Assembly (NCBI RefSeq): GCF_009669325.1
Contig: NZ_SZWE01000002.1
Location: 372,001-436,000, forward strand
Direction: 5' to 3'
DNA length: 64,000 nt
DNA from: Roseovarius bejariae
GTDB taxonomy: Bacteria; Pseudomonadota; Alphaproteobacteria; Rhodobacterales; Rhodobacteraceae
Under the pieces are notes generated by a model that did no database searches, had not been told where the DNA came from, and saw only the letters and a list, made by a program, of their open reading frames with translations. The position numbers and the translations under genes were made by a program. Positions 19,794 to 36,690 of this stretch are shown here, piece after piece (the stretch's first letter is position 1; the number at the start of each line of letters is the position of its first letter).

Positions 19794-20855
19794 TCAGGCG
19801 TATTCAGGTGCGCGGGTTGGTTTCTCCGCCGCGTTGCCTGCCGTGGTCGGGCGGAGCAATTTGCCCATGGCCGCCGCCGTATCGGCCATGCGGTTCGAAA
19901 AGCCCCATTCGTTGTCATACCAGCTCAGGATGCGGCACATGGTGCCGTCTTCCATCACGCGGGTCTGATCGGTGGCGAACACCGAACTGGCCGGGTTGTG
20001 GTTGAAGTCCGATGAGACAAGCTCGCGCCCGATGAGGTCAAGCACCCCGGCAAGCGGGCCTTGCGCGGCCTCGCCGATGATCTGGTTGATCTCCTCGGGG
20101 GTGGTTGGGCGCGTGGTTTCGAAGGTCAGGTCAACGGCGCTGACGTTGGGGGTGGGCACGCGGATGGCCGTGCCATCGAGCTTCCCCGCGAGGTCCGGCA
20201 GGACAAGGCCCACGGCCCGGGCCGCGCCCGTGGTGGTGGGGATCATGTTGAGCGCGGCGGCGCGGGCGCGGTAGAGATCCTTGTGCGCGGTATCCAGCGT
20301 GGGTTGGTCGCCCGTGTAGCTGTGAATCGTCGTCATGAAACCGCGCGTGATTCCGATGGCGTCGTGCAGGGCCTTGGCCACGGGGGCAAGGCAGTTGGTG
20401 GTGCAGGAGGCGTTCGAGACGATCAGGTCATCTGCTGTGAGCTGTTCATGGTTGACGCCAAAGACGACCGTGCGGTCCGCGCCCTTGGACGGGGCCGAGA
20501 CCAGAACCCGCTTGGCGCCGTTTTCAAGGTGGATTGCGGCCTTGTCGCGGTCGGTGAAGATGCCGGTGCATTCCATGACGATATCCACGTCCTGCCAAGG
20601 CAGTTCCGCAGGGTCCCGCAGGGCGGTGACAAGGATGGGGCCTTGACCCACGTCGATGCTGTTCTTGTTGGTTTTCACCGGGGCGGGAAAGCGCCCGTGC
20701 ACGGAGTCGAATTCCAACAAGTGGGCATTGGTCTCAACGGGTGCAAGATCGTTGATGGCAACCACCCGTAGGTCGGTGCGGCCCGATTCGACAATGGCGC
20801 GTAGGACATTGCGACCGATGCGCCCAAAGCCGTTGATGGCAACTTTGACTGTCAT
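19794..20855 (-). CDS. gap: Type I glyceraldehyde-3-phosphate dehydrogenase, paralogue 1
   Basis: The 353-residue enzyme interconverts glyceraldehyde 3-phosphate and 1,3-bisphosphoglycerate. The catalytic Cys is at 151 (SNASCTTNC). The N-terminal Rossmann fold reads INGFGRIGRN, and the NAD-determining Asp is kept (IND at 34-36). The equivalent of B. stearothermophilus L187-P188 is T189-A190. The C-terminus has a tail after MGKLLRP that paralogue 2 lacks. A perfect GTTAGCGCTAAC palindrome lies 22 bp upstream of the start, so a LacI-family regulator probably controls it. A second gap is at 22741-23742 with a similar operator. Confidence 0.93.
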   Translation of the reverse strand: MTVKVAINGFGRIGRNVLRAIVESGRTDLRVVAINDLAPVETNAHLLEFDSVHGRFPAPVKTNKNSIDVGQGPILVTALRDPAELPWQDVDIVMECTGIFTDRDKAAIHLENGAKRVLVSAPSKGADRTVVFGVNHEQLTADDLIVSNASCTTNCLAPVAKALHDAIGITRGFMTTIHSYTGDQPTLDTAHKDLYRARAAALNMIPTTTGAARAVGLVLPDLAGKLDGTAIRVPTPNVSAVDLTFETTRPTTPEEINQIIGEAAQGPLAGVLDLIGRELVSSDFNHNPASSVFATDQTRVMEDGTMCRILSWYDNEWGFSNRMADTAAAMGKLLRPTTAGNAAEKPTRAPEYA

Positions 20856-20876
20856 TTTATGGGTCCTTTCCCTTGC

Positions 20877-20888
20877 GTTAGCGCTAAC
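20877..20888. promoter_or_regulatory. LacI-family-type operator upstream of gap paralogue 1
   Basis: GTTAGCGCTAAC is a perfect 12-bp palindrome with the central CG typical of LacI-family operators. Related imperfect copies precede the second gap (23841-23852 and 23883-23894). CceR, a LacI-family regulator of central carbon genes in Rhodobacter, is a candidate by family knowledge; the exact CceR consensus was not available to compare. Confidence 0.6.
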
Positions 20889-20956
20889 ATTTGCGCGTTT
20901 ATTACGCGAACCAATACGCAGCTGTCAATGTCGGAGGGAAATTGGCAAGCGAAAGC

Positions 20957-21100
20957 TTAGCGCCAGAAAGCCATCCACTCGATCAGATCGGCAAGCTTGC
21001 GGGCAAGGAACAGGGTATTCGCCCAATCGAACAGCATGGCATCAAGGCCAAGCGCCCCCAGTATGAGGAGGCCCAGAACGATGGAAGACGTATTCGTCAT
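20957..21100 (-). CDS. Small single-span membrane protein, 47 residues
   Basis: Direct translation of the minus strand from ATG 21100 to TAA 20957 gives a 47-residue protein: a hydrophobic segment SIVLGLLILGALGLDAMLF, then DWANTLFLARKLADLIEWMA ending FWR. The pattern of one span plus an amphipathic aromatic helix is protein-like, and I recall similar short ORFs next to gap in other Rhodobacterales. It lies between the membrane LuxR gene (57 bp upstream) and gap paralogue 1. Its function is unknown; it could be the last gene of the PepSY/cytochrome b/LuxR operon. Confidence 0.6.
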   Translation of the reverse strand: MTNTSSIVLGLLILGALGLDAMLFDWANTLFLARKLADLIEWMAFWR

Positions 21101-21157
21101 GTTGGTCTGTCCCGTGATCATGTGCTGGTGACTTGATGCCAGAGGCGCAGGGCCCTG

Positions 21158-21691
21158 TCACGATGCTTCTTTGCGGAGTGGGGTGACCGAAGGGGCAAGG
21201 GGGGCATTCATCAAGTCATCCACCAGCACCCCCAGAAGGGCGCCCCGACCGGGTACACCAGCTTTGCGGTAGATCGCGTTCAACTGGGATTTGACCGTAC
21301 CCTCGGCAGAGCCGCGCATCTCGGCAATTTCGGCGATAGAAAGGCCCTTGATGGTGAAACCGGCGACATCCTGTTCCGCGGCGGTCAGGCCCCAGTTTTG
21401 AAAGTGGTCTATCATGATGTCGTGAAAGGCCCCGGCCGCGATGGAGACCTGATTTTCCAGATGAGCTTTGCGGCGCAGGAGGGCCATAAGGGCGCGCACC
21501 TCGTAAACAATGGCCGAGACGAGGGCGAGCGCGGCGATGGTTTCAATGGCGATATGCAGGTTGGCAAGCGCCCGCAAACCGTTTGGCCCCAGGTCGTCCA
21601 CGACATCCCAAAGGAAAAACGCGGCGCAAAGGCTTTGCACCGCGATCAGCGCAATCAGCGCCAGAGGCTTGTTTCGGTCGCCTTGGATCAT
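21158..21691 (-). CDS. Membrane-anchored LuxR-type transcriptional regulator
   Basis: The 177-residue protein has two predicted membrane spans (about 10-28 and 44-65), a short linker, and a C-terminal LuxR-type helix-turn-helix (about 101-160) with GLTAAEQDVAGFTIKGLSIA, then EIAEMRGSAEGTVKSQLNAI and YRKAGVPGRGALLG. It has no receiver or autoinducer domain, so its signal probably comes through the membrane part. Its ATG overlaps the stop of the cytochrome b gene, and a PepSY protein precedes that. The trio suggests a redox-coupled membrane sensor that regulates transcription directly; this is inference from the arrangement. Confidence 0.75.
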   Translation of the reverse strand: MIQGDRNKPLALIALIAVQSLCAAFFLWDVVDDLGPNGLRALANLHIAIETIAALALVSAIVYEVRALMALLRRKAHLENQVSIAAGAFHDIMIDHFQNWGLTAAEQDVAGFTIKGLSIAEIAEMRGSAEGTVKSQLNAIYRKAGVPGRGALLGVLVDDLMNAPLAPSVTPLRKEAS

Positions 21692-22227
21692 GGCACCAGT
21701 TTTACGTCATCTGGTACGCGTTTGGTACCTGTGACCATGGCCCGCGGCAGATTTACGCCTGTGCGCCAACTCTCCCAGATGACGGCAGCGACATGCAGGA
21801 CAACCGAGATTTCGGCCCAAGTCACAAGTGCCTCATGGGCCTCTTCGACCCAGTCGACGCCCCAAAAGGCATTCGTCGTCATCATCCAGCCGGTGAGGCC
21901 GATGGCCAACAAAGAGGCCAGCAGGTTGAATATCATCAAGGCCCCCAATGGCGTATGCCCGAGGTGAGCCTTCCTGCGGCGCGTGGCGAGGTCCGAGAGT
22001 TGTTCGGTTACCCCGTTCCGGGTGGGCCAGAAACTGGAGAAGCGGGCGCTTTTCGGGCCGATAAGCCCCCAGAGGATGCGGAAGCCCACAAGGGCGAGAA
22101 CGATATAGCCGACCCATTCGTGCAGTTTGCTTTCATCGTCGGTCAAAAACGCATTGGCAAGGAACCCGGCGGCGACGCTCCAATGAAAGAGGCGCACGAA
22201 AGGGTCCCAGATTTTGTGATCAGTCAT
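21688..22227 (-). CDS. Cytochrome b561-type membrane protein
   Basis: The 179-residue protein has four predicted membrane helices with heme-ligand-like His residues: H15 (RLFHWSVAAGF), H36 (LHEWVGYIVLALVGFR), H91 (GHTPLGALMIFN) and H145 (VLHVAAVIWE). This matches the bacterial cytochrome b561/nickel-dependent hydrogenase b-type family, which passes electrons between quinone and a partner. The likely partner is the adjacent PepSY protein. It overlaps the membrane LuxR gene by 4 bp. The physiological donor and acceptor are unknown. Confidence 0.82.
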   Translation of the reverse strand: MTDHKIWDPFVRLFHWSVAAGFLANAFLTDDESKLHEWVGYIVLALVGFRILWGLIGPKSARFSSFWPTRNGVTEQLSDLATRRRKAHLGHTPLGALMIFNLLASLLAIGLTGWMMTTNAFWGVDWVEEAHEALVTWAEISVVLHVAAVIWESWRTGVNLPRAMVTGTKRVPDDVKLVP

Positions 22228-22284
22228 GGTGAAGGTCCTTCCGGAGCAGTTGGCGGACCCTGTAACAGGGTCCGCCGGGCGCGA

Positions 22285-22536
22285 TCAGTCGTCCATTTTG
22301 GTTTCGACGACTTTGAGATCTTTATCGAGGTAAATCTCATAACGGGCGCCATCCTTGAGAGCGTAGGCCTCGTACATGCCATCCTCGGTGTCGACCTTGC
22401 GCACGTCATAACCTTGCTCGGTAAGTTGGGTCTTGATTTGCTCTGCCTTGGCGGAGTCCATTTTGACGTAGTCGTCCGAGGCGTGCGCCATGGAGCCTGC
22501 GGTGATGGCAAGTGCGAGGGCGATGATACGTGTCAT
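22285..22536 (-). CDS. Exported PepSY-domain protein
   Basis: The ATG at 22536 opens an 83-residue protein with a signal peptide (MTRIIALALAITAGSMAHA) and a PepSY-like mature domain (AEQIKTQLTEQGYDVRKVDT, YEAYALKDGARYEIYLDKDL). Single small PepSY proteins often accompany b-type cytochromes or two-component systems and sit in the periplasm. It is first in the operon with the cytochrome b and membrane LuxR genes, 57 bp upstream of the former. An in-frame extension to 22599 lacks a signal-peptide-like start. Confidence 0.8.
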   Translation of the reverse strand: MTRIIALALAITAGSMAHASDDYVKMDSAKAEQIKTQLTEQGYDVRKVDTEDGMYEAYALKDGARYEIYLDKDLKVVETKMDD

Positions 22537-22686
22537 TGGCTTATCCTTTGCGTTTGTAAAGAGAACGCGGCTTGCGTGGCCTGCGTTGGCAAGGGACATG
22601 ACGGTATTTGGTGGGGCAGGCCATTGGCCAAAGGTTCATTACGGCGTTTTATAACCGGGGTTTATGTGGGCGCGATGGTAAAAGAA

Positions 22687-22716
22687 AACCCCCGAGTGCG
22701 CAGGCGCCCGGGGGTT
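22687..22716 (-). terminator. Rho-independent terminator of gap paralogue 2
   Basis: Arms AACCCCCG (22687-22694) and CGGGGGTT (22709-22716) pair perfectly; on the minus strand a TTTTCTTTT tract follows. It lies 25 bp after the gap stop. Confidence 0.85.
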
Positions 22717-22740
22717 AAGTGTTTGAACAGAGCGTGTTTA

Positions 22741-23742
22741 TTAGGCGAGGCGGCCCATGGCGACGGCCACGTCGGCCATGCGGCACGAAAAGCCCCATTC
22801 GTTGTCGTACCATGCCAGAACGCGCACCAGGCGGCCCCCGGTAACGCGGGTCTGATCAGGGGCGAAGATCGAGCTTTCCTCGGTATGGTTGAAGTCGACG
22901 CTGACCTTGGGCTCAGGATCGTAGCCGAGGACGCCCTTCATCGGGCCTGCGGCGGCTTCGGCGACGATTTCGTTCACATCGGCGGCGGTCACGTCTTTCT
23001 TGGCGATGAAGGTCAGGTCCACCGCCGAGACATTCGGGGTCGGCACGCGAATGGCTGAGCCGTCGAGCTTACCCTTGAGGCTGGGCAGGACCTCGCCCAG
23101 GGCCTTGGCGGCCCCGGTGGAAGTGGGGATCATCGACATGGCCGCGGCGCGGGCGCGATACAGATCCTTGTGGCGGCGGTCCAGCGTGGGCTGGTCGCCG
23201 GTATAGGCGTGGATCGTGGTCATGATACCAGACTCGATGCCGATACCCGCGTCCAGAACCTTGGCCACCGGCGCAAGGCAGTTGGTGGTGCAAGAGCCGT
23301 TGGAGATCATGGTTTCCCCGACTTGCAGGTCGGCATCGTTGACGCCGTAGACCACGGTGCGGTCAACATTCTTGCCCGGAGCCGAAAGCAGGACCTTGCC
23401 CGCGCCACGCTCAAGGTGCTTCTTGGCTTTCTCGCCGTCGTTGAACTTGCCGGTGCATTCCATCACCACGTCGACCCCGGACCAATCCAGTTCGTCCATG
23501 TCGTAGGTGGAGTACATCTCCATCGGGCCACGGCCTAGATCCATGGTGCCATCGCCAAGCGTGATTTCGTTCGGGAAACGGCCATGTACACTGTCGTATT
23601 TCATCAGGTGGGCAGCTGTGTCCAGCGGGCCGGTCGCGTTGACCTTGACCACCTTGATGTCATTGCGGGTGCTGGTGGCGATATGGGCGAGGGTGCAACG
23701 GCCAATACGGCCAAATCCGTTGATCCCGACGGTGATCGTCAT
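22741..23742 (-). CDS. gap: Type I glyceraldehyde-3-phosphate dehydrogenase, paralogue 2, probably NADP-capable
   Basis: The start at 23742 (MTITVGINGFGRIGR) gives 333 residues with catalytic Cys151 (SNGSCTTNC). It aligns residue for residue with paralogue 1, yet the NAD-selecting Asp is replaced: KVNATG, with Ala36 where paralogue 1 has Asp36. The L187-P188 equivalents are R189-R190 (TLDRRHKDLYRAR). In well-studied GAPDHs these positions govern NAD versus NADP use, so NADP use is predicted. It lies downstream of the malyl-CoA lyase operon but has its own 212-bp upstream region with two LacI-type operators. A terminator follows. Confidence 0.92.
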   Translation of the reverse strand: MTITVGINGFGRIGRCTLAHIATSTRNDIKVVKVNATGPLDTAAHLMKYDSVHGRFPNEITLGDGTMDLGRGPMEMYSTYDMDELDWSGVDVVMECTGKFNDGEKAKKHLERGAGKVLLSAPGKNVDRTVVYGVNDADLQVGETMISNGSCTTNCLAPVAKVLDAGIGIESGIMTTIHAYTGDQPTLDRRHKDLYRARAAAMSMIPTSTGAAKALGEVLPSLKGKLDGSAIRVPTPNVSAVDLTFIAKKDVTAADVNEIVAEAAAGPMKGVLGYDPEPKVSVDFNHTEESSIFAPDQTRVTGGRLVRVLAWYDNEWGFSCRMADVAVAMGRLA

Positions 23743-23840
23743 GGGGGCATCTCCTGCATGCGTGAAATTGCACGCGGTATAGACCTCGGGGGCTTTGTCG
23801 GGAAGGTCCAAAAGCGGAGTTTTGGTGTGAAATTCAGGGT

Positions 23841-23852
23841 GTTAGCGATAAC
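23841..23852. promoter_or_regulatory. LacI-family-type operator upstream of gap paralogue 2
   Basis: GTTAGCGATAAC differs from the perfect palindrome at 20877-20888 by one base. It overlaps a second dyad, GATAACCGTTACC (23847-23859). The site lies about 100 bp upstream of the gap start. Confidence 0.55.
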
Positions 23853-23882
23853 CGTTACCGCAAACCTGAGTGTTGGAAGAGC

Positions 23883-23894
23883 GATTGCGCTAAC
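23883..23894. promoter_or_regulatory. Second, weaker LacI-type half-operator upstream of gap paralogue 2
   Basis: GATTGCGCTAAC matches the gap paralogue 1 operator at 10 of 12 positions, with one intact half-site. Its centre is 42 bp from the 23841 site, exactly four helical turns, which would suit looping or cooperative binding. Confidence 0.4.
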
Positions 23895-23954
23895 GCGCAT
23901 GTCGGCCCCGCGACTCAGGTGTGGCGGGGGCCATGGCAGCCCCCGCCGCGTTGC

Positions 23955-24836
23955 TCAGGCGACCATCTTGGCGACGGTCTCGCCGAAGGTCGAGGGGGTC
24001 GGCACGATGGCCACGCCCGCGTCCTTCAGTATCTCGACCTTTTCCTGCGCCGATTCCCCGAAGGCCGAAACGATCGCGCCCGCGTGACCCATACGGCGGC
24101 CCTTGGGGGCCGACAGACCGGCGATATAGGCGGCCACGGGTTTGGTCATGTGGTCGCGGATGTATTCGGCGGCTTCGGCCTCCTGCGGGCCGCCGATTTC
24201 TCCGACCATGACGACGGCGTCGGTTTCGGGATCATTCTCGAAGAGTTCGAGAATGTCGCGGAAGCTGGACCCGTTGATCGGGTCGCCGCCGATGCCGATG
24301 GAAGAGGACACGCCGATGCCCTTGGATTTCATCTGGCTTGCGGCTTCGTAGCCGAGGGTGCCCGAGCGGCCCACGATGCCCACGCGGCCCGGCATGTAGA
24401 TCGAAGGCGGCATGAGGCCGGCAAAGCCCTGACCGGGGGTGATGATGCCCGCGCAGTTGGGCCCGATCAGGCGCATCCGCTTATCGGCCTTGTAACGGCG
24501 CATGTAGCGTTTGACGTGGATCATGTCCTGTGCGGGGATGCCATCGGCGATGCAGACGCAGGTCTTGATGCCCGCATCGGCGGCCTCCATGATCGAGTCG
24601 GCGGCGAAGGGCGGGGGAACGAAACTGACCACCATGTCGGCGCCGGTTTCGGCCACGGCCCCTTTGACCGTATTGAAGACCGGCAAATCAAGGTGCTTGG
24701 TGCCGCCCTTGCCGGGGGTCACCCCGCCCACCACGTTGGTGCCGTGCTTGATCATGTCCTGCGCGTGGAAGCTGCCGATGCGGCCGGTGAATCCGGTGAC
24801 CAGAACCTTGGTGTCGCTGTCGATGAGAATAGCCAT
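23955..24836 (-). CDS. mtkB: Malate--CoA ligase (malate thiokinase) alpha subunit, SucD-like
   Basis: The 293-residue protein belongs to the CoA-ligase alpha family: CoA-binding start (VLVTGFTGRIGSFHAQDMIK), CoA ligase domain, and the phosphorylated His251 in RRMGHAGAIVSAFG. Alone it could be succinyl-CoA synthetase SucD, but it is encoded directly after mtkA and malyl-CoA lyase, the serine-cycle order, so malate thiokinase is the better call. Together with MtkA it would make malyl-CoA from malate, CoA and ATP. It overlaps mtkA by one base (24836). Confidence 0.85.
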   Translation of the reverse strand: MAILIDSDTKVLVTGFTGRIGSFHAQDMIKHGTNVVGGVTPGKGGTKHLDLPVFNTVKGAVAETGADMVVSFVPPPFAADSIMEAADAGIKTCVCIADGIPAQDMIHVKRYMRRYKADKRMRLIGPNCAGIITPGQGFAGLMPPSIYMPGRVGIVGRSGTLGYEAASQMKSKGIGVSSSIGIGGDPINGSSFRDILELFENDPETDAVVMVGEIGGPQEAEAAEYIRDHMTKPVAAYIAGLSAPKGRRMGHAGAIVSAFGESAQEKVEILKDAGVAIVPTPSTFGETVAKMVA

Positions 24837-26020
24837 TACGAGGCCTCCTTGAGTGATGCGTCCTTCCAGGCGCCGACGACTTTGTCGGCAGCCTCGGCGA
24901 GGGTGTCGGTGGCGATGACGTTGACGGAGCTTTCGGCGAGGATTTTCTGACCTTCCTCGACGTTGGTGCCCGACAAGCGCACCACCACGGGGATTTGCAG
25001 GTTGAGTTCCTCCATGGCGCGGATCACGCCCTCGGCCACCCAGTCGCAGCGGTTGATGCCCGCGAAGATGTTGACGAGGATCGCCTCGACCTTGGGGTCG
25101 TTGAGGACCGCCTTGAAAGACATCAGAACGCGGTCGGGGCTGGCCCCGCCGCCCACGTCGAGGAAGTTGGCGGGTTCGCCCCCGGCCATCTTGATCATGT
25201 CAAGCGTGGCCATGGCGAGGCCCGCGCCGTTGACGATACAGCCGATTTGCCCATCGAGGCCGATGTAGTTGAGGCCGTTGTCGCTGGCGAAGGTTTCGCG
25301 TGTGTCTTCCTGGCTTTTGTCACGCAGTTCCGAGATTTCGGGGCGGCGGAACAGGGCGTTGTCATCGAAGCTGACCTTGGCGTCGAGCGCGACGATTTCG
25401 CCTGCCTTGGTGACGACCATTGGGTTCACCTCGACCATGTTGGCGTCCATGTCCCGCATCAGGCGATAGCAGCCCATGATGGTCTTGACCGCCTGCGGGA
25501 TCAGCGCCGGGTCAAGGTCGAGCGAGAAGGCGATCTCGCGGGCCTGGAAGGCCTGCATGCCGACGGCGGGGTCAACCACCGAGCGGATGATCGACTCGGG
25601 CTCCTGTTCCGAGATTTCCTCGATCTCCATGCCGCCTTGGGCCGAGGCCACGACGACCACGCGTTCCAGCTTCCGGTCCATCACGAAGCCAAGGTAGATT
25701 TCTTGTGCGATGTTGGTGGCCTCTTCGACATAGAGGCGGCTGACCAGTTTGCCCTGCGGGCCGGTCTGATGGGTGACGAGCTTGCGGCCCAGCATCCATT
25801 GTGCGGCGTCCGCGACTTCCTGTTCGTTGGAACAGATGCGCACGCCACCGGCCTTGCCGCGGGCGCCGGAGTGGATTTGTGCCTTGACCACCCAGCGTTC
25901 GCCCGAAAGCTCGCTGGCACGATAAACCGCCTGTTCGGGGCTGTAGGCGATGCCGCCGCGCGGCACCTGCACGCCGAAGCGCGTGAGCAGGTCCTTGGCT
26001 TGGTATTCATGGATATCCAT
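24836..26020 (-). CDS. mtkA: Malate--CoA ligase (malate thiokinase) beta subunit, SucC-like
   Basis: The 394-residue protein has an N-terminal ATP-grasp domain ([57 protein letters not shown]) and a C-terminal CoA-ligase domain ([37 protein letters not shown]). It is homologous to SucC; the assignment to malate thiokinase rests on its position between mclA (14 bp upstream) and mtkB. The encoded pathway step, malate to malyl-CoA and then glyoxylate plus acetyl-CoA, is part of the serine cycle. A succinate-specific role cannot be excluded from sequence alone. Confidence 0.85.
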
Positions 26021-26034
26021 TTGATTTTCCTCTC

Positions 26035-26979
26035 TTATCCGTGCTGCGCCTTGATGGCGTCGTCGACGGTGATCACGTTGTTGGCCATGCGTTCCGAGGC
26101 GGCGTCGATCATCTTGCCATCGAGGCTGGCCGCGCCTTTTCCTTCGGCTTCTGCTTTCTTGAGTTCCTCGATGATGCGACGGGCGCGGGTGACCTCGGCC
26201 TCGGGCGGCGAGAAGACATCGTTGGCCAGATCAATCTGGCTGGGATGGATGGCCCACTTGCCTTCGATGCCAAGGGCGGCGGCGCGCTTGGCGGAGGCGG
26301 TGTAGGCTTCGGGATCATTGAAGTCGCCGAAGGGGCCGTCGATGGCGCGCAGCCCGTAGGCACGGCAGGCGACGGTCATCCGTGAGAGGGCGAAGTGCCA
26401 TTGATCGCCCGGGTAATCGGGGTTCAGCCCGCCGATCACGACGGTACGCGCGCGGTTGGAGGCGGCGTAATCGGCCACCCCGAAATGCAGCGCCTCAAGG
26501 CGGCCGGGGGTGGCGGCGATGGCCTCGACATTGGCCATGCCGAGAGCGGTTTCGATCAGGGCCTCAAGGCCAATTTTATGAGTGAATCCCATGGCTTCCT
26601 CGATTTGCGAGACCATGGTTTCGACGGTGTAGAGGTCCGACGGCACGCCGACTTTGGGCACCAGAATGGTGTCGAGATGCTGGCCTGCCTGCTCCAGAAT
26701 CTCGACCACGTCGCGGTACATGTAATGGGTATCGAGACCGTTGATCCGGATCGAGACGGTCTTGCCCTTGGCCTTCCAGTCGATGTCGTTGAGGGCCTGA
26801 ATGATATTGGCCCGCGCGTTAACCTTGTCGGGCGGCGCGACGGCATCTTCGAGATCGAAGAAAATGTAATCCACATTGCTGTCGGCGGCCTTCTCGATCA
26901 TCGAGGGGTTGGAGCCGGGAACGGCCAGCTCGGACCGTTGAAGTCGTTGTTTTTTAAGGGGATAGAGAGTGTAGCTCAT
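26035..26979 (-). CDS. mclA: L-malyl-CoA lyase (HpcH/HpaI aldolase-citrate lyase family)
   Basis: The 314-residue enzyme cleaves malyl-CoA to glyoxylate and acetyl-CoA. Landmarks are [12 protein letters not shown] at 41-52 (metal-binding acidic residues), [15 protein letters not shown] at 76-90 (catalytic Arg), and [18 protein letters not shown] with the conserved Glu. From memory it reads closer to the methylotroph serine-cycle MclA ([10 protein letters not shown] start, DYAASNRAR) than to Rhodobacter Mcl1, but lacks a short insertion before the HFALSRM segment. It heads the mclA-mtkA-mtkB operon. A 21-bp palindrome lies 121 bp upstream of its start and recurs before sgaA. Confidence 0.88.
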
Positions 26980-27089
26980 GTGGGGTGTCCTTTGGGTCTG
27001 CGGTTTAGGTCAGCTTGGACCGGATGGGCGCGGGGGGACACTTTCGCATGGGTGGCAATGCCCGCCGGGGGATGGGGTGCGGGCCTGAA

Positions 27090-27110
27090 CGGGTAGGGCG
27101 GCCCTACCCG
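27090..27110. promoter_or_regulatory. 21-bp perfect palindrome upstream of mclA
   Basis: Arms CGGGTAGGGC (27090-27099) and GCCCTACCCG (27101-27110) flank a central G. The centre is 121 bp upstream of the mclA start. A 19/21 identical copy lies at 30338-30358, 117 bp upstream of sgaA, so both probably bind the same regulator. Confidence 0.65.
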
Positions 27111-27247
27111 GCAGGGCCGCGCCGGGATGCCGGTGCACACAGTCGCTGCGGTGCAGAGAAGTTTAAGGAAAACAAATGTTTATGATCGGAAACTTATGTG
27201 CCGAAACTGGGCATTGAGGGCGTTATGACCTGTCGGTTCGCGCCGCA

Positions 27248-27294
27248 CTTGTTAACCTTTGCCGCGAATCGGGGGTAAGGGCTTGGTTAACAAG
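27248..27294. repeat. Perfect 10-bp inverted repeat with GTTAAC cores
   Basis: CTTGTTAACC at 27248-27257 is repeated inverted as GGTTAACAAG at 27285-27294, with 27 bp between. Each arm contains the palindrome GTTAAC, so it could be two dimer sites rather than one hairpin. It lies between divergent transcription units. Confidence 0.4.
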
Positions 27295-27390
27295 AAAAAC
27301 CCCCATGCTGTAACGCGTCGGTTTTACGTCGGTATCGCGTCGGTATTTTTTCCCGCACCCCCCGGAATTAACAGGGCGCGCGGTGAGAAA

Positions 27391-27418
27391 CGTACGAAAC
27401 GTACGTGAGTTTCGTACG
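27391..27418. promoter_or_regulatory. CGTACG cluster C
   Basis: CGTACG begins at 27391, 27400 and 27413. The first pair has the same 9-bp interval as the pairs in elements A and B, and GAAACGTAC is repeated in tandem (27388-27405). It lies in the intergenic region between mclA and the exported protein, about 410-420 bp from either start. Confidence 0.4.
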
Positions 27419-27836
27419 GTTTGCGCAGTAAGGGCCTATCTTGAAGGGCGGTTTTGCGGGACGGAGCGGGCATTCGCCATGGACCCGTAACAATGCACTG
27501 AAGGTCGGATCGATGACCAGCGACTACCGGTCTGTTTGCTACCCATGTGTCACTGCAAGATAGGTGAGTTTTCGGTTTTTGATTTCGGTTATTGAACGCT
27601 ACCCGATGAGAATAATTTTAGGTTTTGAATAGCAAGACTATGGTGTTGCCTTCATGTACATTGCGACTTTTGGGCGAAGGCAATCACTGCCATAGGGTCA
27701 CAGTCGTTACTGTGGTTCTACAGGAAACGGCCTTTACCAAATGGATCGAAAATCGCCTTCCTTCCGTCCATGCCTTTGCATGAGAGAAATTTTTTTGCTA
27801 ATTTCAGATTCTTATTTTTATTGGGAGGATAGTAAT

Positions 27837-28616
27837 TTGACCTTCAAAATTATTGCCACAAGCATGGTTGCTTCAGTGGTAGCTTTGCCAGCATTGGCTG
27901 CTCCAGTAGATCTCAGTTCGTGGCTTCAGGACGGCGGTGGTGGCTGGAACCTTGAATCCGACAACAACGGGGTCAAGCAATTTGGTAACTCTCCTCCGGG
28001 CGTATTTCACAACAATGAGAACAGCCAGGGGCAATCCCTTTCTGGAAGCATCGAAGTGCAATCGGCCAGCGACAATGATTTCGTCGGGTTTGTGCTGGGA
28101 TATAACGAAGGCGACATCGGTGGAGGCAACGTTGGTCAGGACTATCTGCTGATCGATTGGAAACAGGGCACCCAAGCTGGTTGGGACGCAGGCCTAGCGA
28201 TATCCCGAGTTACCGGAGATATCGCAACCGGCGGTACGAATACCGGTTCGAGTGCATGGCAACATAACGGCGTCGTAGAATTTCTCACGCGATCCAACGC
28301 GACTGGTTCTAATTTCGGCAATACCGGTTGGGCCAATAATACGGAATACACGTTCGACCTCGAATTCACGTCGTCAAATGTCAAAGTGTTCGTTAACGAC
28401 AACCTGGAGATTGACATCGACGCATCGGATTACGGTGGCGATCCGTTTGCCGATGGCTCGTTTGGCTTTTACGCGTTCTCGCAAACAGGCGGGCGCTACG
28501 CTGGCCTCGAAGAAGCTGATCTGCCTCCGCCGATACCTGTTCCCGCTGGCTTTCCGCTGGCGCTCAGCGCGCTGGCAACCTTGGGCTGGCTGGCCCGCCG
28601 TCGTCGCGTGAACTGA
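27837..28616 (+). CDS. Exported thrombospondin-C-like lectin-fold protein with VPLPA-CTERM-type sorting tail
   Basis: A TTG at 27837 with GGGAGG 8 bp upstream is the best start, giving 259 residues: signal peptide (TFKIIATSMVASVVALPALA), then a jellyroll domain resembling the thrombospondin C-terminal domain (NDFVGFVLGYNEGDIGGG, YLLIDWKQGTQ, EYTFDLEFTSSNVKVFVND). The C-terminus IPVPAGFPLALSALATLGWL plus ARRRRVN is a VPLPA-CTERM variant: Pro motif, one span, Arg cluster, recognised by exosortase systems. The protein is probably placed on the cell surface or in matrix. Base composition is lower in GC than the neighbours. An ATG at 27741 lacks a signal peptide directly after it. Confidence 0.82.
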   Translation: MTFKIIATSMVASVVALPALAAPVDLSSWLQDGGGGWNLESDNNGVKQFGNSPPGVFHNNENSQGQSLSGSIEVQSASDNDFVGFVLGYNEGDIGGGNVGQDYLLIDWKQGTQAGWDAGLAISRVTGDIATGGTNTGSSAWQHNGVVEFLTRSNATGSNFGNTGWANNTEYTFDLEFTSSNVKVFVNDNLEIDIDASDYGGDPFADGSFGFYAFSQTGGRYAGLEEADLPPPIPVPAGFPLALSALATLGWLARRRRVN

Positions 28617-28638
28617 AACCTAGCAGAAGCTTGATATC

Positions 28639-28673
28639 CGCCTTTCGCTTGCCTCAAAGGTGAGTGAAAGGCG
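28639..28673 (+). terminator. Terminator-like hairpin after the exported protein gene
   Basis: Arms CGCCTTTCGCT (28639-28649) and AGTGAAAGGCG (28663-28673) pair over 11 positions with one G-U, followed by TAATTCT. It lies 23 bp after the stop codon. Confidence 0.6.
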
Positions 28674-28961
28674 TAATTCTAGAAAAACCATTACAGACGT
28701 ACTGTAGTTTGGTCTTTTTGACCATACGCGTATTTAAACCAAAGCACATCCGCTCTGGGCTGATTGTGTTGAAAAACTCAGGCGTCTCAAAATCGCCCGT
28801 GGATTTCAGAGTTCGGTTCGGCTAGGAGACGCGTTGGCAAACGAGATTTCCAGAACGAGGCAGTGGCGGGATGAAATCCTGTCGATTTGGCCTGTTTGGT
28901 TTGTGCCTCGAATTATCCAACAAAATGAGCTCACTCCCGTTATTCGCCGCATGTTGCGGAA

Positions 28962-28987
28962 CGGGCCGCTTTTGGCAAAGCGGCCCG
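28962..28987 (-). terminator. Strong GC hairpin after sgaA
   Basis: Perfect arms CGGGCCGCTTT (28962-28972) and AAAGCGGCCCG (28977-28987) with a 4-base loop. No clear T tract follows on the minus strand, so it may protect the mRNA end or act with Rho. Confidence 0.55.
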
Positions 28988-29028
28988 GTGGTGCATAGTC
29001 AGCCCCGGCGGTGCGAGGCCGGGCAGGT

Positions 29029-30231
29029 TCAGGCGGCCTTGCTTTGCCCTTGCCGCGCGTCCGGCGTTGAGGCGCGGAACTGCTCGGATGCGGCGGCGAG
29101 GCCGGAGCCGGGCTCGACCTCGGCGCCGCAATCGCGCAGGGCCATTTCGGCTGCCGAAATCGCGCCGCAAAGCATGACCGCGTTCATCGAGCCGATATGA
29201 CCGATGCGGAAGGCGCGACCGGCGAGGATGTTGAGGCCGGAGCCAAGCGAGGTCTGGTATTTGTAATAGGCGGTCGAGATCACCTCGCGGGCATCGACGC
29301 CCTCGGGGGCATAGATGGCCGAGACCGTGTCGGAATAGCTGGCCGGATCGCGGGCCACCAGATCACATCCCTTCCACGCGGCAACGGCGGCGCGCGTGCC
29401 TTGGGCAAGGCGCGCGTGGCGGGCCCATGTGCTTTCCATCCCGGCCTCGAGCAGCATGTCGAGCGAGACACGCAGCCCACGCAGGAGTTGCGTGGCGGGC
29501 GTATAGGGGAAATAGCCGGTGTCGTTGAGGGCGATCATATCCTCGAAGCTGAAGTAGCTGCGCGGCATGGAGGCGGTCTTGCTGGCCTCAAGCGCCTTGT
29601 CGGAGACCCCGAGGAAACCGAGGCCCGCGGGTAGCATGAACCCCTTTTGCGAGCCGGCCACGGCCAGATCGACGCCCCATTTCTCCATCTCGAACTCGAT
29701 CGAGCCGATGGAGCTGACGCCATCGACGAAAAGCAGGGCCGGGTGGCCTGCTTCGTCCAGTGCCTTGCGGATGGCGGCAATATCGGAGGTGACGCCGGTG
29801 GCGGTCTCGTTGTGGGTGGCGAAGACGGCCTTGATCTGGTGGCTGGTGTCGGCCTTTAGGCGCTCGGCGTAGTCCGCGACCGGGACGGGGTTGCCCCAGT
29901 CGGTGTCGCAAAGGTCTACGTCGAGGCCGAGGCGGGTGGCCATCTCGGCCCAGAGCAGCGAGAACTGGCCGAAGCGCGACATCAGCACGCGATCGCCGGT
30001 GTCGAGCGTGTTGGTGATTGCGGATTCCCATGCCCCGGTGCCGGAGGAGGGGAAGATGAAGACGCGGCCGTTTTCAAGCCGGAAGACCTTCTTGATGTCG
30101 GTCAGGACACCATCGACGAAGCCGCCGAAATCGGGGGCGCGCATATCTTCCATGGGGATGTTCATCGCCTGACGAACGGGTTCGGGCACATTGGTGGGGC
30201 CGGGAACGAAAAGGTGTTGATAGCCGTGCAT
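29029..30231 (-). CDS. sgaA: Serine--glyoxylate aminotransferase
   Basis: The 400-residue class V aminotransferase carries FVPGPTNVPEPV at the start, FPSSGTGAWESAITNTL (phosphate binding), FVDGVSSIGS (Asp for PLP N1) and the PLP Lys196 in AVAGSQKGFMLP. It transfers the amino group of serine to glyoxylate, giving hydroxypyruvate and glycine; alanine-glyoxylate activity is common in the family. It thus consumes the glyoxylate made by MclA, 2 kb away. A copy of the mclA-upstream palindrome lies 117 bp before its start. The divergent gene encodes a LuxR-type regulator. Confidence 0.9.
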   Translation of the reverse strand: MHGYQHLFVPGPTNVPEPVRQAMNIPMEDMRAPDFGGFVDGVLTDIKKVFRLENGRVFIFPSSGTGAWESAITNTLDTGDRVLMSRFGQFSLLWAEMATRLGLDVDLCDTDWGNPVPVADYAERLKADTSHQIKAVFATHNETATGVTSDIAAIRKALDEAGHPALLFVDGVSSIGSIEFEMEKWGVDLAVAGSQKGFMLPAGLGFLGVSDKALEASKTASMPRSYFSFEDMIALNDTGYFPYTPATQLLRGLRVSLDMLLEAGMESTWARHARLAQGTRAAVAAWKGCDLVARDPASYSDTVSAIYAPEGVDAREVISTAYYKYQTSLGSGLNILAGRAFRIGHIGSMNAVMLCGAISAAEMALRDCGAEVEPGSGLAAASEQFRASTPDARQGQSKAA

Positions 30232-30337
30232 GGGATTCCTCCAGTCATGGGTTTTCCCTTGTATCGGCGGGGAGGGCCGGGGGCGTAATGCCCGAGTGAA
30301 TACCCAAGGTGAGCGGCTGGCGGGAGGCGGCCCCTAG

Positions 30338-30358
30338 TGGGTAGGGCGGCCCCACCCG
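30338..30358. promoter_or_regulatory. 21-bp near-perfect palindrome upstream of sgaA
   Basis: Arms TGGGTAGGGC (30338-30347) and GCCCCACCCG (30349-30358) around a central G (30348). It matches the palindrome before mclA at 19 of 21 positions and lies at nearly the same distance from the start codon (117 versus 121 bp). It is also 146 bp upstream of the divergent regulator gene. Confidence 0.65.
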
Positions 30359-30503
30359 TTCGAGTGAAAGCGCACATTGGCATGCGGTTGCATACTGAAA
30401 AATCGTTGAAAATCACCGGTTTAGGGTGCTTTTTTGTCGCAATTCGAGGCGTGGGAAATGGAGGCGTTTGCTGTACACTGAGCAGATGGAGGAGACCAAA
30501 ATC

Positions 30504-31145
30504 ATGACCGCGGCGCCTGTAGACAGCGCCACGAGGGATGCCCCGCAGGTGATCGTTGCCGACCGGCAGGTGATCGTTTGCCAAGGGATCGGATCGCTTG
30601 TGTCGCAAATTCCCGAGGTCACGCTGGGGGCCTTTGCCACCGACAAGGCGAGCCTCAAGACACTGTTGTCGGGGGCGCCGGAGCGGTCGATCCTGATTTT
30701 GGGTGTGCGGCTGGCGGATGGAGATCTGACCCAGGTGCTTGAGATGGTGCGTCGTGATTATCCGCATGTCATGGTGGTGGTCGTGGCCGAGGACAGCGAG
30801 TTCGCCTTTATCCGCGCGGCGATCAAGCAGGGGGCCAATTCGGTCTGCATGATGAGCCAGATCCTGACCAGCCTGCCGAAGATCTTGGGCAAGCTGGTGG
30901 AAGGGCATTCGATCGTGCCCACGGATATTCTCAAGCGGCTGACTTCGGAAAACACCGATGCGCTGTCGCGGCGTGAGCATGAGATATTGGCGCTGCTGGT
31001 GGATGGCCTGACCAATTTCCAGATTTCCGCGCGGCTGGGCCTGAGCGAGAACACGGTGAAATATTACCTCAAGGCGATTTACCAGAAGCTCGACGTGAAT
31101 TCGCGCGGGGCGGCGATTGCCAAGTATGTGGCCGGGAATTACTGA
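30504..31145 (+). CDS. LuxR/NarL-type regulator with degenerate receiver domain
   Basis: The ATG at 30504 follows GGAGGAG by 9 bp and gives 213 residues. The N-terminal half has receiver-like secondary structure ([48 protein letters not shown]) but the phospho-acceptor Asp after beta-3 is Gly67 and only one acidic residue remains in the beta-1 loop, so phosphorylation is unlikely. The C-terminal HTH ([36 protein letters not shown]) is intact. Divergence from sgaA, with the shared palindrome in between, makes it the prime candidate regulator of sgaA and mclA. An ATG at 30486 is an alternative start. Confidence 0.82.
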
Positions 31146-32596
31146 GCCTGCGCAGTTTGGCGCGTCGGTAGGTCAATGTTCTTCGAGGCATGGGCCACGG
31201 TGGCCTGCGCCAGAACTGTGCGGGCGTGGCTATCTATGTCGCGCAGCATGGGCAGGAATTCCTCGGAAAAGCGGTATTCGATGATGCGCTTTTGGGGCAA
31301 CCAGAATTGAAAGCGGCAAGTGCCGTATTGGGCCGCCTTGCGATAGCTTTGACAGGTGCCGAATCCGGTGGCGCTGCCGGTGTCGTCGGTGAGGGCATAG
31401 CTTGCCCCGCGCGCGGCGGCCTTGCCGATGCAGCCATCGCGGGTTTCATAGCGCGGGCCACGGTTGCGAAAGGCCTCAAGGGCGGCTTGGGCGGAGGTGG
31501 GGGACATCTCCTGCAATCGTGTGATACCCGGTGCGATTTCACGGTCGAATTCGCAATTGAACCTGGTCAGTTTTTCGAATTCATCGGTGAATGACGGGAC
31601 GGTGCCCCAATCCGGGGTGCCATCGTAGAGGCGCTGTTGCGAAGGTAGGGAGATTTCCAAGGCGCTGTTGGGGTGATCCTCGAACGTGCCTGCGAGGGTG
31701 CCGAAATCGGGAAGTGTGACGAGAAGTTTCAATGTGGACTCATCCGGGGTGGGCTGTCGTGGGCGCAACTCGGTCGAAAGCACGGCGTAACCCTGTTTGT
31801 GAGTCTTTTCGACGTCTTCTGCGCTGATGAGTGTGACGCGCTTGTAGTCCACGGTTGGCTGTACGTTCGCGGACTTGGGAAAGCTGAAGGCCCAGACGGC
31901 GTCATCATGGTTGCCCCAGTGCCGATCACGGCCCGCGTCACGAAGCATCACTTGCTGGCGGTCCGGGTCAAAGTAGGGCGCGGGCTGTGGCGCGGGGGTG
32001 TAGAGATGGGCAATGGCCACGTCCAGAAGCCCGATAAGGCCGATAGCGGCCAGCCCTATGCGCGCAGTCAGGGGACGCAGGCCAATCCAGAGCCGTTTGT
32101 GGCCGGACCTGTCGTATTCCCGGGCATTTTCGGGGGCAGGAGCCTCGGGCGCGGGGCCGTATTTTTCGCCGCGGTAGGTGCCTTTGCGCAGGGCGACCCC
32201 TGACAGCGCGATCAGGCCAAAGAGCGGGCCCAGAATTTCGCCATCGGCAAGCTGTGTTGTGATGTAGGCGGAGGAGATAAGGATGGTCAGATACCACCAG
32301 CCGCTAAGCCCTATGTCGTGAAACCGGCGGATGGTAACCGTTATGGCCGGCACGAAGAGCGCCAGTTCGATCAGGGTGCCCACGATACGGAGCAGATAGA
32401 ACCCGTGAGACGGATCGAGCCAAAGACCAAACAGCGGTTTCATGCGCCATGAGCCGGTAAACAGTGCCAGAAGCACCATCACCGCCAAGGTGAACAGAGT
32501 GAATCCCCAAAACTCGGATCGGGAGGCGCGGCCTTGGATGGACCAATACTTTTCGATGAGGCAGGATTTGACTTTACTCTTAAAATGCATTTTCAA
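31139..32596 (-). CDS. DUF805 membrane protein with long extracytoplasmic C-terminal domain
   Basis: The 485-residue protein begins with a DUF805 domain (about 15-135): the conserved [28 protein letters not shown] and four membrane spans. A fifth span near 177-195 precedes some 290 residues with no recognised family, containing Cys residues in FNCEFD, RDGCIGK, GTCQSYR and YGTCRF that may form disulfides outside the membrane. DUF805 proteins have no established function. The stop overlaps the end of the convergent LuxR-type gene by 7 bp. The large extra domain is unusual for DUF805 proteins, which are mostly about 120-150 residues. Confidence 0.75.
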
Positions 32597-32687
32597 CCCA
32601 GGCGTTTGATGTTCGCCTAGGTTTCGCTAGTAAATTGGGCAATTTCTGGCAGCCGATGTGATCTTGCTGTGATGCTGTGGCGCGAGG

Positions 32688-33650
32688 TTAGAGGCCGTGC
32701 CCCCGCGCGTGGAAGATGAAGCCCAGAAAGTTCAGCAACAGCTGTGCCGCGAGGATCGAGGTGGAGTCTGTGGGGTCGTAGTCTGGGGCGACTTCGACGA
32801 GGTCTAGGCCCACCACCTCGTGGTTTTGCGCCACGTTTTGCAGCACTTCCAGCACTTCGTAATAAAGAAAGCCGCCGTGGCTGGGCGTGCCGGTGCCCGG
32901 CGCGATGGAGGGGCAGAAGCCGTCGATGTCGATGGTGACATAGACGCGGGCGCCCTTGGGGATGCGCCCTGCCGTGGCCTCTGGCCCCAATGCGCGCATT
33001 TGCCGGACCGAGAGGATATCGGAGCCGCGCGCGCGAGCGTCGTCATAGCCATCCTTGGCGGTGGAACTGACGTTGCGGATGCCCAGTTGGGTGAGGCCGG
33101 TGACATAGGGTTTTTCCGAGGCGCGGCGCATCGGGTTGCCGTGGCCGTACCGCACGCCGTGGCGTTCGTCGACGAAATCGAGGTGCGCGTCGATTTGCAG
33201 GATGTGGATATCGCCTTGGTCGTCGAAAGCGTTGATGCAGGGGATATTGACCGAGTGATCGCCGCCGATGGTGACGGGCAGGGCACCGGCCTTGAGGATG
33301 GCGCGCACGCCGGACTCGATATTGGAATGGGAGGATTCGGTCTGGGTGTGGATGATGTCAGCATCGCCTATATCGACCATGCGCACCGAACCGGGTAGGT
33401 AGGTTACATCGTCTTCATGGTCATAGGCGCCAGCGTGGCCGAAGCTGAAGAGGGTCGAGGCCTCGCGCACGCCGCGCGGTCCGAAGCGTGCGCCCGAACG
33501 CCATTGGGTGCCCGCATCGAAGGGCGCGCCGAGGATGGCGACATCGGCGTCGATGGCGGACCAGTCCGAGACATAGGGGCGTTTGCCGAAAGTGGAGATG
33601 CCGACGAAGGGCAGGTCGAGCCGCCCGCTTTCATAGCCGTGTTTGGTCAT
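32688..33650 (-). CDS. Agmatinase-family ureohydrolase, second paralogue
   Basis: The ATG at 33650 gives 320 residues. Metal-binding motifs are present: GGDHSV at 129-134, DAHLD at 154-158 and IDIDGF at 240-245. The segment after the DID pair reads GFCPSIAPGTGTPSHGG, where the other paralogue in this window has CLDPGFAPGTGTP; the metal ligands remain, but the altered loop may change specificity. Candidate substrates are agmatine, guanidinobutyrate or guanidinopropionate. A TTG at 33671 would lengthen it by seven residues. No transporter or regulator gene is next to it. Confidence 0.85.
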   Translation of the reverse strand: MTKHGYESGRLDLPFVGISTFGKRPYVSDWSAIDADVAILGAPFDAGTQWRSGARFGPRGVREASTLFSFGHAGAYDHEDDVTYLPGSVRMVDIGDADIIHTQTESSHSNIESGVRAILKAGALPVTIGGDHSVNIPCINAFDDQGDIHILQIDAHLDFVDERHGVRYGHGNPMRRASEKPYVTGLTQLGIRNVSSTAKDGYDDARARGSDILSVRQMRALGPEATAGRIPKGARVYVTIDIDGFCPSIAPGTGTPSHGGFLYYEVLEVLQNVAQNHEVVGLDLVEVAPDYDPTDSTSILAAQLLLNFLGFIFHARGHGL

Positions 33651-34018
33651 TGTCCGGTTCCCTGTTGCCAAAGGTCAAAAGTTCGTCTCGGTCACTGTTG
33701 AGCGAACGTAGAAGGTCAGATCGTCGTCCTAGATCATCAGGCAGGTGTCGGACAAGGTGTGGCCCGACAGGTCATTGAGGGTGGTGGTGCCTTGGGCAGG
33801 CGTGAAAAGGGATGGGGCCAGCCCATGGGCAAGGCTTTTTGCGGGAAGATGGGGTGTGTCACGCTGACATCGGAATAACGTGGGTTTGATCCCTGTTGGA
33901 GCCTGAAAACGGCTGTATGTGAAGTGGGGGGCTTATATTGCCGGTGTTTAGGGTGCGTCGTTATGGTAAAATCCTTGCGCGTTTTCTGGCAAAAGCGTCG
34001 CTGACAGGAGAATTGAAT
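33651..34018. other. 368-bp intergenic region with a possible gene remnant
   Basis: On the minus strand a frame ending at TAG 33730-33732 reads GLAPSLFTPAQGTTTLNDLS then GHTLSDTCLMI, which looks like a natural protein C-terminus, but no start or full domain is recoverable upstream because the region overlaps the promoter of the next gene. It may be the tail of a decayed gene or chance. An AGGAG ribosome site before the flavoprotein start lies at 34006-34010. Confidence 0.25.
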
Positions 34019-34999
34019 ATGACCAATGCGTTCTGCTCTAAGTTTGGAATACGTCAGCCAATCGTTCTGGCCCCGATGGGGCGTGTTGGACCGCCAGAGC
34101 TTGTCGCTGCGGTGAGCAATGCAGGCGGCCTTGGTTTGGCGCCGCTCTGGACCGATGCGCCTGACAAGATGAGAGCGGAAATCCGTCGTATCAAAGAGCT
34201 GACCGACAAGCCGTTCGGCGTGAACTTGAACATGGATTTTCGCAATGAGGCGCAGCTTGATGTCTGTCTGGAAGAAGGTGTCGACGTTATTTCCATCTTT
34301 TGGGGAGAGCCAGGCAACTTCGTAGAACGTGCAAAATCCCACGGTGCGAAAGTCATAATCACGGCAAGCACATCCGCCGTCGCAAAGGAGGCGGTGGCGC
34401 TTGGTGCGGATGCAATCTGTGCGCAAGGGTGGGAAGCGGGAGGTCATGTCGAAGGTAAAGTTTCGACAATGGCACTTGTGCCTGCCGTGGCAGACACCGT
34501 TGGCGATGTTCCTGTTATTGCAGCGGGCGGCATTGCCGATGGGCGCGGGCTGGCGGCGGCTTTGGCGCTTGGGGCTTCGGCGGCTTGGATCGGGACGCGT
34601 TTTCTGGCGGCCAAAGAGGCCCCGACCCACCCAGTCTATATGGAGCGCCTGCTGGCCGCCTCTGAAGACGACACCAGCCACTATGATGATCTCTACGATC
34701 TTGTTTGGCCCAATGCCCCTCATAGAGCTTTGAAAAACAGCACTTCCGAGATGTGGGACGCCGCAGGAAGACCGCCACTCGGTCAAAGGCCGGGAGAGGG
34801 GGATATCCTTGCCTTGCGTCCTGACGGTGTCGAGATACCGCGATACGCCAGCGCCGTTGCCTTCGCCGGATTGGAGGGTGAGATTGAGCCACTTCCCATG
34901 TGGTCAGGTCAGGGGGTGGGGCTTGTCACCAAAATCCAGACCGCCGAAGAAATCGTTCGGGAGATCGTTGAGCAGGCTAAAACCATCATAAATTTTTAG
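34019..34999 (+). CDS. Nitronate monooxygenase / 2-nitropropane dioxygenase-like FMN oxidoreductase
   Basis: The ATG at 34019 has AGGAG 8 bp upstream and gives 326 residues of a TIM-barrel flavoprotein: RQPIVLAPMGRVGPPELVAA near the start, KPFGVNLNMDF, the AICAQGWEAGGH motif (catalytic His region; QGxEAGGH is the class signature), and PVIAAGGIADGRGLAAALAL with GASAAWIGTRFLA for FMN phosphate. The family oxidises alkyl nitronates such as propionate 3-nitronate; some members are enoyl-ACP reductases (FabK). The C-terminal insertion with DDLYDLVWP is common in nitronate monooxygenases. It is a single-gene unit by spacing. Confidence 0.82.
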   Translation: MTNAFCSKFGIRQPIVLAPMGRVGPPELVAAVSNAGGLGLAPLWTDAPDKMRAEIRRIKELTDKPFGVNLNMDFRNEAQLDVCLEEGVDVISIFWGEPGNFVERAKSHGAKVIITASTSAVAKEAVALGADAICAQGWEAGGHVEGKVSTMALVPAVADTVGDVPVIAAGGIADGRGLAAALALGASAAWIGTRFLAAKEAPTHPVYMERLLAASEDDTSHYDDLYDLVWPNAPHRALKNSTSEMWDAAGRPPLGQRPGEGDILALRPDGVEIPRYASAVAFAGLEGEIEPLPMWSGQGVGLVTKIQTAEEIVREIVEQAKTIINF

Positions 35000-35205
35000 C
35001 CGCTGTCCGTTCCGACAGGATCCAGTCGGTCTAGAGGCGCTTGGGGCCACGCGATTGCGGGCTGGCGTCCTTTGGTTTGGCGGGGCAATTGATTGGCATT
35101 AGAGCGGTCAGTGCCCCTGTTTTGACACTCAGCGCGGTCTAATTGCTTTTCTTGCCGTTTGCGTGGCCGATCGCCTCTTTCCATTCGGTCCAACCCGTGC
35201 AATAG

Positions 35206-36690
<1,485 letters not shown>

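Follow-up and report, generated by a model that had tools for sequence, protein, structure and literature searches.

A conserved GGGTRG palindrome before serine-cycle genes in Roseovarius bejariae and relatives, a probable operator of a ScyR-like regulator

Two nearly identical palindromes precede the serine-cycle genes mclA-mtkA-mtkB and sgaA in the 64,000-nucleotide stretch of Roseovarius bejariae DNA analyzed here (the window), and very probably serve as the site at which the NarL/LuxR-type regulator encoded beside them binds. The explanation that best covers all of our observations is that the palindrome is the operator of this protein, a relative of ScyR, which would control serine-cycle genes through it; judging from the sequence comparisons below, we put the probability of this reading at roughly 0.87. 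The same site occurs before one-carbon (serine-cycle) genes in several alphaproteobacterial groups and therefore appears to mark a shared control system.

The two palindromes and their genes

The sites read CGGGTAGGGCGGCCCTACCCG (before mclA) and TGGGTAGGGCGGCCCCACCCG (before sgaA). Our recount agrees with an earlier reading of the window made from the sequence alone (the sequence-only reading), which had them identical at 19 of 21 bases and centered 121 bp and 117 bp before the start codons of mclA (ATG at 26979, - strand) and sgaA (ATG at 30231, - strand), respectively. That reading called both sites palindromes, a description that fits the first (20 of 21 letters agree with the reverse complement, the exception being the odd center base) and applies to the second as an imperfect palindrome (16 of 21). 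The arms of the inverted repeat are strong, at 8 to 9 bp. Leftward from the first site lie mclA, mtkA, and mtkB; the second is flanked by sgaA on the left and, on the right, by the NarL/LuxR-type gene (luxR in the counts below), which is divergent from sgaA and starts at 30504 or 30486 (Table 1). The window, which lies on contig C2 (573,119 bp), encodes an MclA 99% identical to proteins in two other Roseovarius records (L030, L090).

Table 1. Predicted operators and associated genes in the window
Feature	Positions	Strand	Basis and remarks
Putative operator before mclA-mtkA-mtkB	27090..27110 (core 27091-27109)	.	GGGTAG-N7-CTACCC; predicted from conservation
Putative operator in the gap between sgaA and the divergent regulator gene	30338..30358 (core 30339-30357)	.	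Halves GGGTAG and CCACCC; predicted
mclA, malyl-CoA lyase	26035..26979	-	CitE-like family, below NCBIfam cut-offs; named by context
mtkA, malate-CoA ligase beta subunit	24836..26020	-	NF010647, above cut-off
mtkB, malate-CoA ligase alpha subunit	23955..24836	-	NCBIfam succinate-CoA ligase alpha, above cut-off
sgaA, serine-glyoxylate aminotransferase	29029..30231	-	Best NCBIfam model BhcA, below cut-off; named by context
NarL/LuxR-type pseudo-response regulator, ScyR-like	30504..31145	+	Probable operator binder

The pair is far from a chance occurrence. Allowing up to three mismatches, the 19-mer core gave four strand-hits (two places) in the window against 0.04 expected, a number matched by none of 100 window shuffles. 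Across the whole 3.5-Mb genome, these are the only places within two mismatches of the core, and the two additional matches found in other places, with three mismatches, are no more than the reversed control gives.

Other genes in this part of the window include one on the + strand between mclA and sgaA (27741-28616); its product is probably secreted, contains a TSP_C-type domain, and has a C-terminal end that we take to resemble a VPLPA/PEP-CTERM sorting signal. Two glyceraldehyde-3-phosphate dehydrogenase genes lie near each other (19794-20855 and 22741-23811, both on the - strand), with products about 59% identical (L030 comparison). Between them are a cytochrome-b-like gene (identified by eye) and a small LuxR-type gene (21158-21691, - strand), whose product matches a LuxR-type HTH weakly at its C terminus, is hydrophobic in stretches of its N-terminal part, and is possibly a membrane-bound regulator.

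Conservation before sgaA and mclA

How well the site is conserved, whether it occurs together with the regulator, which genes it precedes, and which residue the receiver carries were all computed directly. For the main count, loci were fetched by mclA or luxR protein only, with the motif unused (L030-L140, L230-L259); 80 of 566 mclA relatives fetched by protein were kept. Rows for sgaA were dropped if they scored below 150 bits, started after query residue 40, had less than 180 bp upstream, or had duplicate last 150 bp. Half-sites were scored out of 12 with spacers of 5 to 8 admitted, and a regulator gene within 1.9 kb was called adjacent.

The sequence-only reading had staked its proposal on conservation of the motif upstream of sgaA and mclA orthologues, and this is borne out for both genes. 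With the regulator gene adjacent, 84 of 86 sgaA upstreams score at least 11 of 12 and the remaining two score 10.5, while reversed half-sites gave 0/86 with adjacent luxR and 1/20 without it, and only 2 of 2,120 Markov resamples of sgaA upstreams reached the threshold. Where mclA has its own promoter, a site scoring at least 11 is present in all 12 loci of Roseovarius/Cochlodiniinecator type, and in none of seven loci from other groups with no regulator seen in the stretch; in the mclA upstream of L050, the control likewise reaches 11. In three loci with luxR (L088, L249, and L253), the 400 bp before mclA hold no site; in two of them (L249 and L253, where luxR is followed by mclA), GGGTAG-N6-CTACCC lies between the two genes, more than 400 bp from mclA.

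These comparisons define the operator form as GGGTRG-N5..8-CYACCC with a variable spacer; the consensus of 40 distinct sites is cGGGTRG-N7-CYACCCg. Among all sites scoring at least 11, spacers of 7 are the most frequent (60 sites), followed by 8 (21) and 6 (13), and a spacer of 5 was met only before pyc, the pyruvate carboxylase gene discussed below. An operator that accepts any spacer from 5 to 8 bp between its halves would be unusual. The admitted range was widened after looking at the data, to 6 to 8 and then to 5, with equal freedom given to the controls. A fixed N7 spacer, which we discarded, had made several sgaA loci with luxR (for example, L039, L043, L080, and L095) seem to lack a site until 6 to 8 was allowed. 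The distance from site to sgaA start codon depends on the type of regulator: 110 to 124 bp with Roseovarius-type, 104 to 108 bp with Mesorhizobium-type, and 143 to 345 bp with Hyphomicrobium-type regulators.

Co-occurrence of site and regulator

Genomes in which luxR is not adjacent to sgaA separate the site from the neighborhood of the regulator gene. Twelve of 20 such sgaA upstreams score at least 10.5, and 11 of these 12 genomes encode the regulator elsewhere; the other (G358, L105) has the palindrome and no regulator orthologue. Seven of the eight lower-scoring genomes are without the regulator, and the eighth, Gemmobacter caeni, has a diverged homologue.

We also compared site and regulator genome by genome. 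Searches by protein found relatives of the regulator in 33 of 40 Roseovarius genomes, and a family scan with the window protein alone as query, which would miss Paracoccus/Ruegeria-type members, returned 2 of 198 genomes. A profile search of 99 Hyphomicrobium-type genomes gave 60 strong orthologues (E 1.1e-77 or better) and one further orthologue in two pieces, with paralogues at 1e-34 to 1e-25. In this family, the strict N6-8 palindrome is present in 33 of the 60 genomes with the orthologue versus 3 of the 39 without it (Fisher p 1.2e-6); 27 of the 60 have no strict N6-8 site, some of them showing near matches.

Counted over whole genomes, the motif does not outnumber its reversed control, either for the strict pattern in the Hyphomicrobium-type family (53 forward hits versus 144 control) or for a loose pattern in the window's genome (5 sites versus 7 control); the signal lies in the place of the sites and not in their number. 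In the 40 Roseovarius genomes, the N7 pattern gave 60 sites (43 with a GGGTAG half) versus 31 control hits. Scatter of the motif at unrelated genes would have spoken against the sequence-only reading; what we found is that 36 of the 43 GGGTAG-half sites fall within 6 kb of luxR, a span equal to about 0.26% of the sequence. Outside those 36, one site is at mclA on another contig (G017, L020), and one in G029 has letters identical to those of the L030 mclA site. Sites made of G/C-only halves (GGGTGG...CCACCC) behave as background, with 1 of 17 near luxR in Roseovarius, and G027, in which no regulator was found, has a G/C-only palindrome with neither sgaA nor luxR beside it (L158). In regulator-free Hyphomicrobium-type genomes, there are five sites, and none of the three that were read (L220, L221, and L304) is at serine-cycle genes. 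The luxR gene, whose product is the protein named as a candidate in the sequence-only reading, is the one that tracks the motif across genomes.

The candidate regulator and its relation to ScyR

The regulator has a GerE HTH domain in Pfam, and no Pfam model for a receiver domain scored above threshold. Its predicted structure has a receiver-like fold joined to an HTH (mean pLDDT, 87.4; pTM, 0.65), for which the best PDB match by fold is RcsB (on DNA); the closest solved structures by sequence are ChrA and NarL. The window protein differs from these NarL/RcsB/ChrA-type response regulators in carrying Gly (Gly67) at the position of their phospho-acceptor Asp. Of 20 serine-cycle-linked homologues, 16 carry Gly at this position, one carries Ala, one Ser, and two (Paracoccus and Ruegeria) Asp, leaving 18 of 20 without a phosphorylatable aspartate, while all nine paralogues compared carry Asp. 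Of the usual two acidic residues, the window protein retains the first alone. The Asp-bearing Paracoccus and Ruegeria proteins are themselves without the second acidic residue and the usual Lys, and so even these members may not be ordinary phosphorylated regulators. The diverged homologue of Gemmobacter caeni (G360; L109, L350), where sgaA is without the palindrome, has Ala at the phospho-acceptor position.

In an unrooted tree of 30 proteins, the 20 serine-cycle-linked members stand apart from the nine paralogues with 98/99 support, with several long branches. Serine-cycle genes neighbor the regulator gene in other families too, and no kinase gene beside it was found by eye in the open reading frames of positions 20000-38000. 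A protein database search returned at least 1,673 proteins at E ≤ 1e-20 among 8,000 candidates scored; the best 120 of these 1,673 include proteins from Mesorhizobium, Aminobacter, and Labrys and none with a described function.

A response regulator, MxaB, is known for methanol oxidation. For the GGGTRG palindrome, no description was found in the open-license literature searched, in line with the sequence-only reading, which knew of no described regulator with such a site; a regulator of this kind has, however, been named in print. The scyR gene ("serine cycle regulator"), a putative transcriptional regulator, appears in its P. aminovorans version among the query genes in a legend of PMC8235418, which cites Czarnecki et al. 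2017 for the original description. The part of PMC4543880 that bears on such proteins mentions a LuxR-family regulator for dimethylformamide genes only.

We infer from its place beside sgaA on plasmid pAMV1 of P. aminovorans JCM 7685 that the gene at L371:8965-9609 is scyR. Like the window protein, this ScyR candidate combines a receiver-like domain with a LuxR-type HTH, is encoded beside sgaA and serine-cycle genes, and belongs to the group that is set apart from other NarL-type proteins (98/99). Compared with the family profile, it gives an hhalign probability of 100 (E 6.9e-42), and its sgaA-luxR gap holds a related palindrome, with a spacer of 8 instead of the 7 seen in the window. The two proteins are 28% identical, and the ScyR candidate keeps the phospho-acceptor Asp, which the window protein lacks.

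Further candidate targets and gene arrangements

A third site in the window's genome, GGGTAGCACCCCCTACCC, lies 161 bp before the pyruvate carboxylase gene pyc (G000:C2:327717-327734). Loci for pyc were returned for 30 of 40 genomes, and with a spacer of 5 allowed, the site is present in 20 of 26 genomes with luxR and 0 of 4 without it (control, 0/30); with spacers of 6 to 8 only, the counts are 13 of 25 and 0 of 3 (28 of the 30 loci read).

The 60 regulator-bearing Hyphomicrobium-type genomes hold 48 strict sites, of which 28 are within 0.2 kb of luxR; sgaA is next in 23 and mclA in 2 of the 25 luxR-adjoining sites that were read. Seven others precede eno, six precede glyA, and two precede meaA, with ccr divergent. 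The meaA candidate matches the methylmalonyl-CoA mutase family, though short of the cut-off for a full-length member, and we presume the name meaA from its sequence. The remainder comprise one site before ftcD, one before a CoA-transferase-like gene, and three without a sensible target. Some sites without a sensible target lie near a thrS-like gene, near a grxD-like gene, or on a phage-like contig; those near thrS-like (L217), grxD-like (L220), CoA-transferase (L222 and L223), and ftcD (L219) genes were read, and we left them out of the target counts. Of the genes that the sequence-only reading had named as possible carriers of the motif, glyA does have a site, in the six genomes above, alongside the unlisted eno. 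For ppc, hprA, and gck, the correspondence is one of gene order: in Mesorhizobium, the gene after mtkB is ppc-like, and regulator-encoding clusters include hprA- and gck-like genes.

These clusters vary in arrangement. Mesorhizobium has the order luxR-site-sgaA-mclA-mtkAB (the ppc-like gene being in L060), and Sinorhizobium meliloti LMB1 pB has luxR-GGGTAGTCTTCCCCTACCC-sgaA-mclA-mtkAB. On the Paracoccus aminovorans plasmid, sgaA-mtkAB-hprA-ppc-glyA and luxR run in opposite directions from their shared gap, and mclA and a gck-like gene lie downstream of luxR; Ruegeria has a similar cluster. Six of seven sgaA-luxR gaps in Paracoccus, Ponticoccus, and Ruegeria score at least 10.5, a count made without a control; the gap of Ruegeria AD91A scores 8 of 12. 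No site scoring at least 10.5 was found in the 18.6-kb stretches around the Aminobacter regulator clusters (ppc-glyA-luxR twice and ftfL-folD-luxR).

Three further observations concern the letters in these genomes. Several of the Paracoccus/Ponticoccus/Ruegeria gaps (L372, L375, and L377-L379) carry another GGGTAG half close to where luxR starts, which perhaps serves autoregulation, and in some of them a reversed CCACCC adjoins this additional half in an everted arrangement. The sequence GGGTAGACGAGTGCTACCC occurs between genes judged by eye to be etfA-like and 3-hydroxybutyryl-CoA-dehydrogenase-like in two Aminobacter genomes (L145, L155, L226) and is a possible further target. Eight of the 99 Hyphomicrobium-type genomes share a different palindrome, GGGTGGCTAGGCACCACCC, in identical form; in L142 (1501-1519), it sits in a gap between two open frames.

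Proposed control and alternatives

Together, these results support a regulon, as the sequence-only reading had proposed, with limits wider than the release and use of glyoxylate to which that reading confined it. A dimer of the regulator would bind the two inverted GGGTRG halves, 5 to 8 bp apart, at an operator that would lie upstream of the promoter; in Roseovarius and Mesorhizobium, the sites are mostly about 100 to 180 bp before the start codon. In the window's genome, the protein would most likely activate sgaA, mclA-mtkA-mtkB, and pyruvate carboxylase, and in relatives it may activate further genes of the serine cycle and ethylmalonyl-CoA pathway (glyA, eno, and meaA). With 18 of 20 members lacking the phospho-acceptor Asp, the regulator probably does not respond to a kinase; its signal more probably comes from C1/glyoxylate metabolism, and the simplest guess is a pathway metabolite. 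Binding, activation, and the ligand are what we infer here from comparative data.

The sign of this control could also be the opposite. As a variant within the same explanation, the regulator may bind the site and repress unless C1/glyoxylate metabolites are present; the site does sit between divergent genes, and the computed data leave the sign open. We consider repression unlikely, if by no means negligible, given that the distance to the sgaA start is held at 104 to 124 bp with Roseovarius- and Mesorhizobium-type regulators, which in our view is more typical of an activator site and favors activation.

LysR-type regulators recognize T-N11-A, and the N7 form of the palindrome, GGGT-N11-ACCC, contains this motif. 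The protein bound to the palindrome might accordingly be a serine-cycle regulator of LysR type, for instance QscR, which, in the portions of PMC2680597 that describe it, is a global regulator and activator of serine-cycle genes in Methylobacterium, glyA included. In M. extorquens, QscR has a role like that proposed for the window regulator, although the two belong to different protein families (LysR type and GerE/NarL type). The lack of a LysR gene nearby would not exclude such a binder, since the QscR gene is itself not near its serine-cycle targets (PMC2680597, same portions). What makes a LysR-type binder improbable is that the spacer varies from 5 to 8, so that T-N11-A is not conserved (the N5, N6, and N8 forms break it), and that the gene tracking the site is the NarL/LuxR-type one.

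It is very doubtful that the repeat acts as an RNA hairpin or terminator in a leader. Its strong 8- to 9-bp arms would suit such a structure, but a T-run after the repeat is absent at both window sites, the repeat lies more than 100 bp before the start codons, and the commonest Mesorhizobium form on the sgaA strand, GGGTAG...CCACCC, sets A opposite C, a mismatch in an RNA stem. Chance copying of a mobile or duplicated sequence to a place before both genes would explain why the two copies are near identical in the window's genome and is the least credible account of all, since comparison of species shows conserved half-sites around spacers that differ in sequence and length, and since the site goes with the regulator in one family after another.

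A broader interpretation can be offered tentatively, at somewhat less than even odds: the regulator may be a master of one-carbon assimilation in several alphaproteobacterial families, a formerly phosphorylated response regulator turned direct metabolite sensor. The Paracoccus and Ruegeria members would then have kept the Asp that the other compared members lost, and the operator would have stayed coupled to the serine cycle, the ethylmalonyl-CoA pathway, and C4 replenishment by pyruvate carboxylase.

With this site, the serine cycle outside Methylobacterium gains a candidate operator of defined sequence and a regulon that can be read from DNA, whose targets would be predictable for Roseovarius, Mesorhizobium, Sinorhizobium, Hyphomicrobium, and Paracoccus from their genome sequences. 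ScyR, encountered in the papers searched as a name, becomes a testable system with a candidate DNA site, which raises the question of which signal replaced phosphorylation and bears on the engineering of C1 assimilation.
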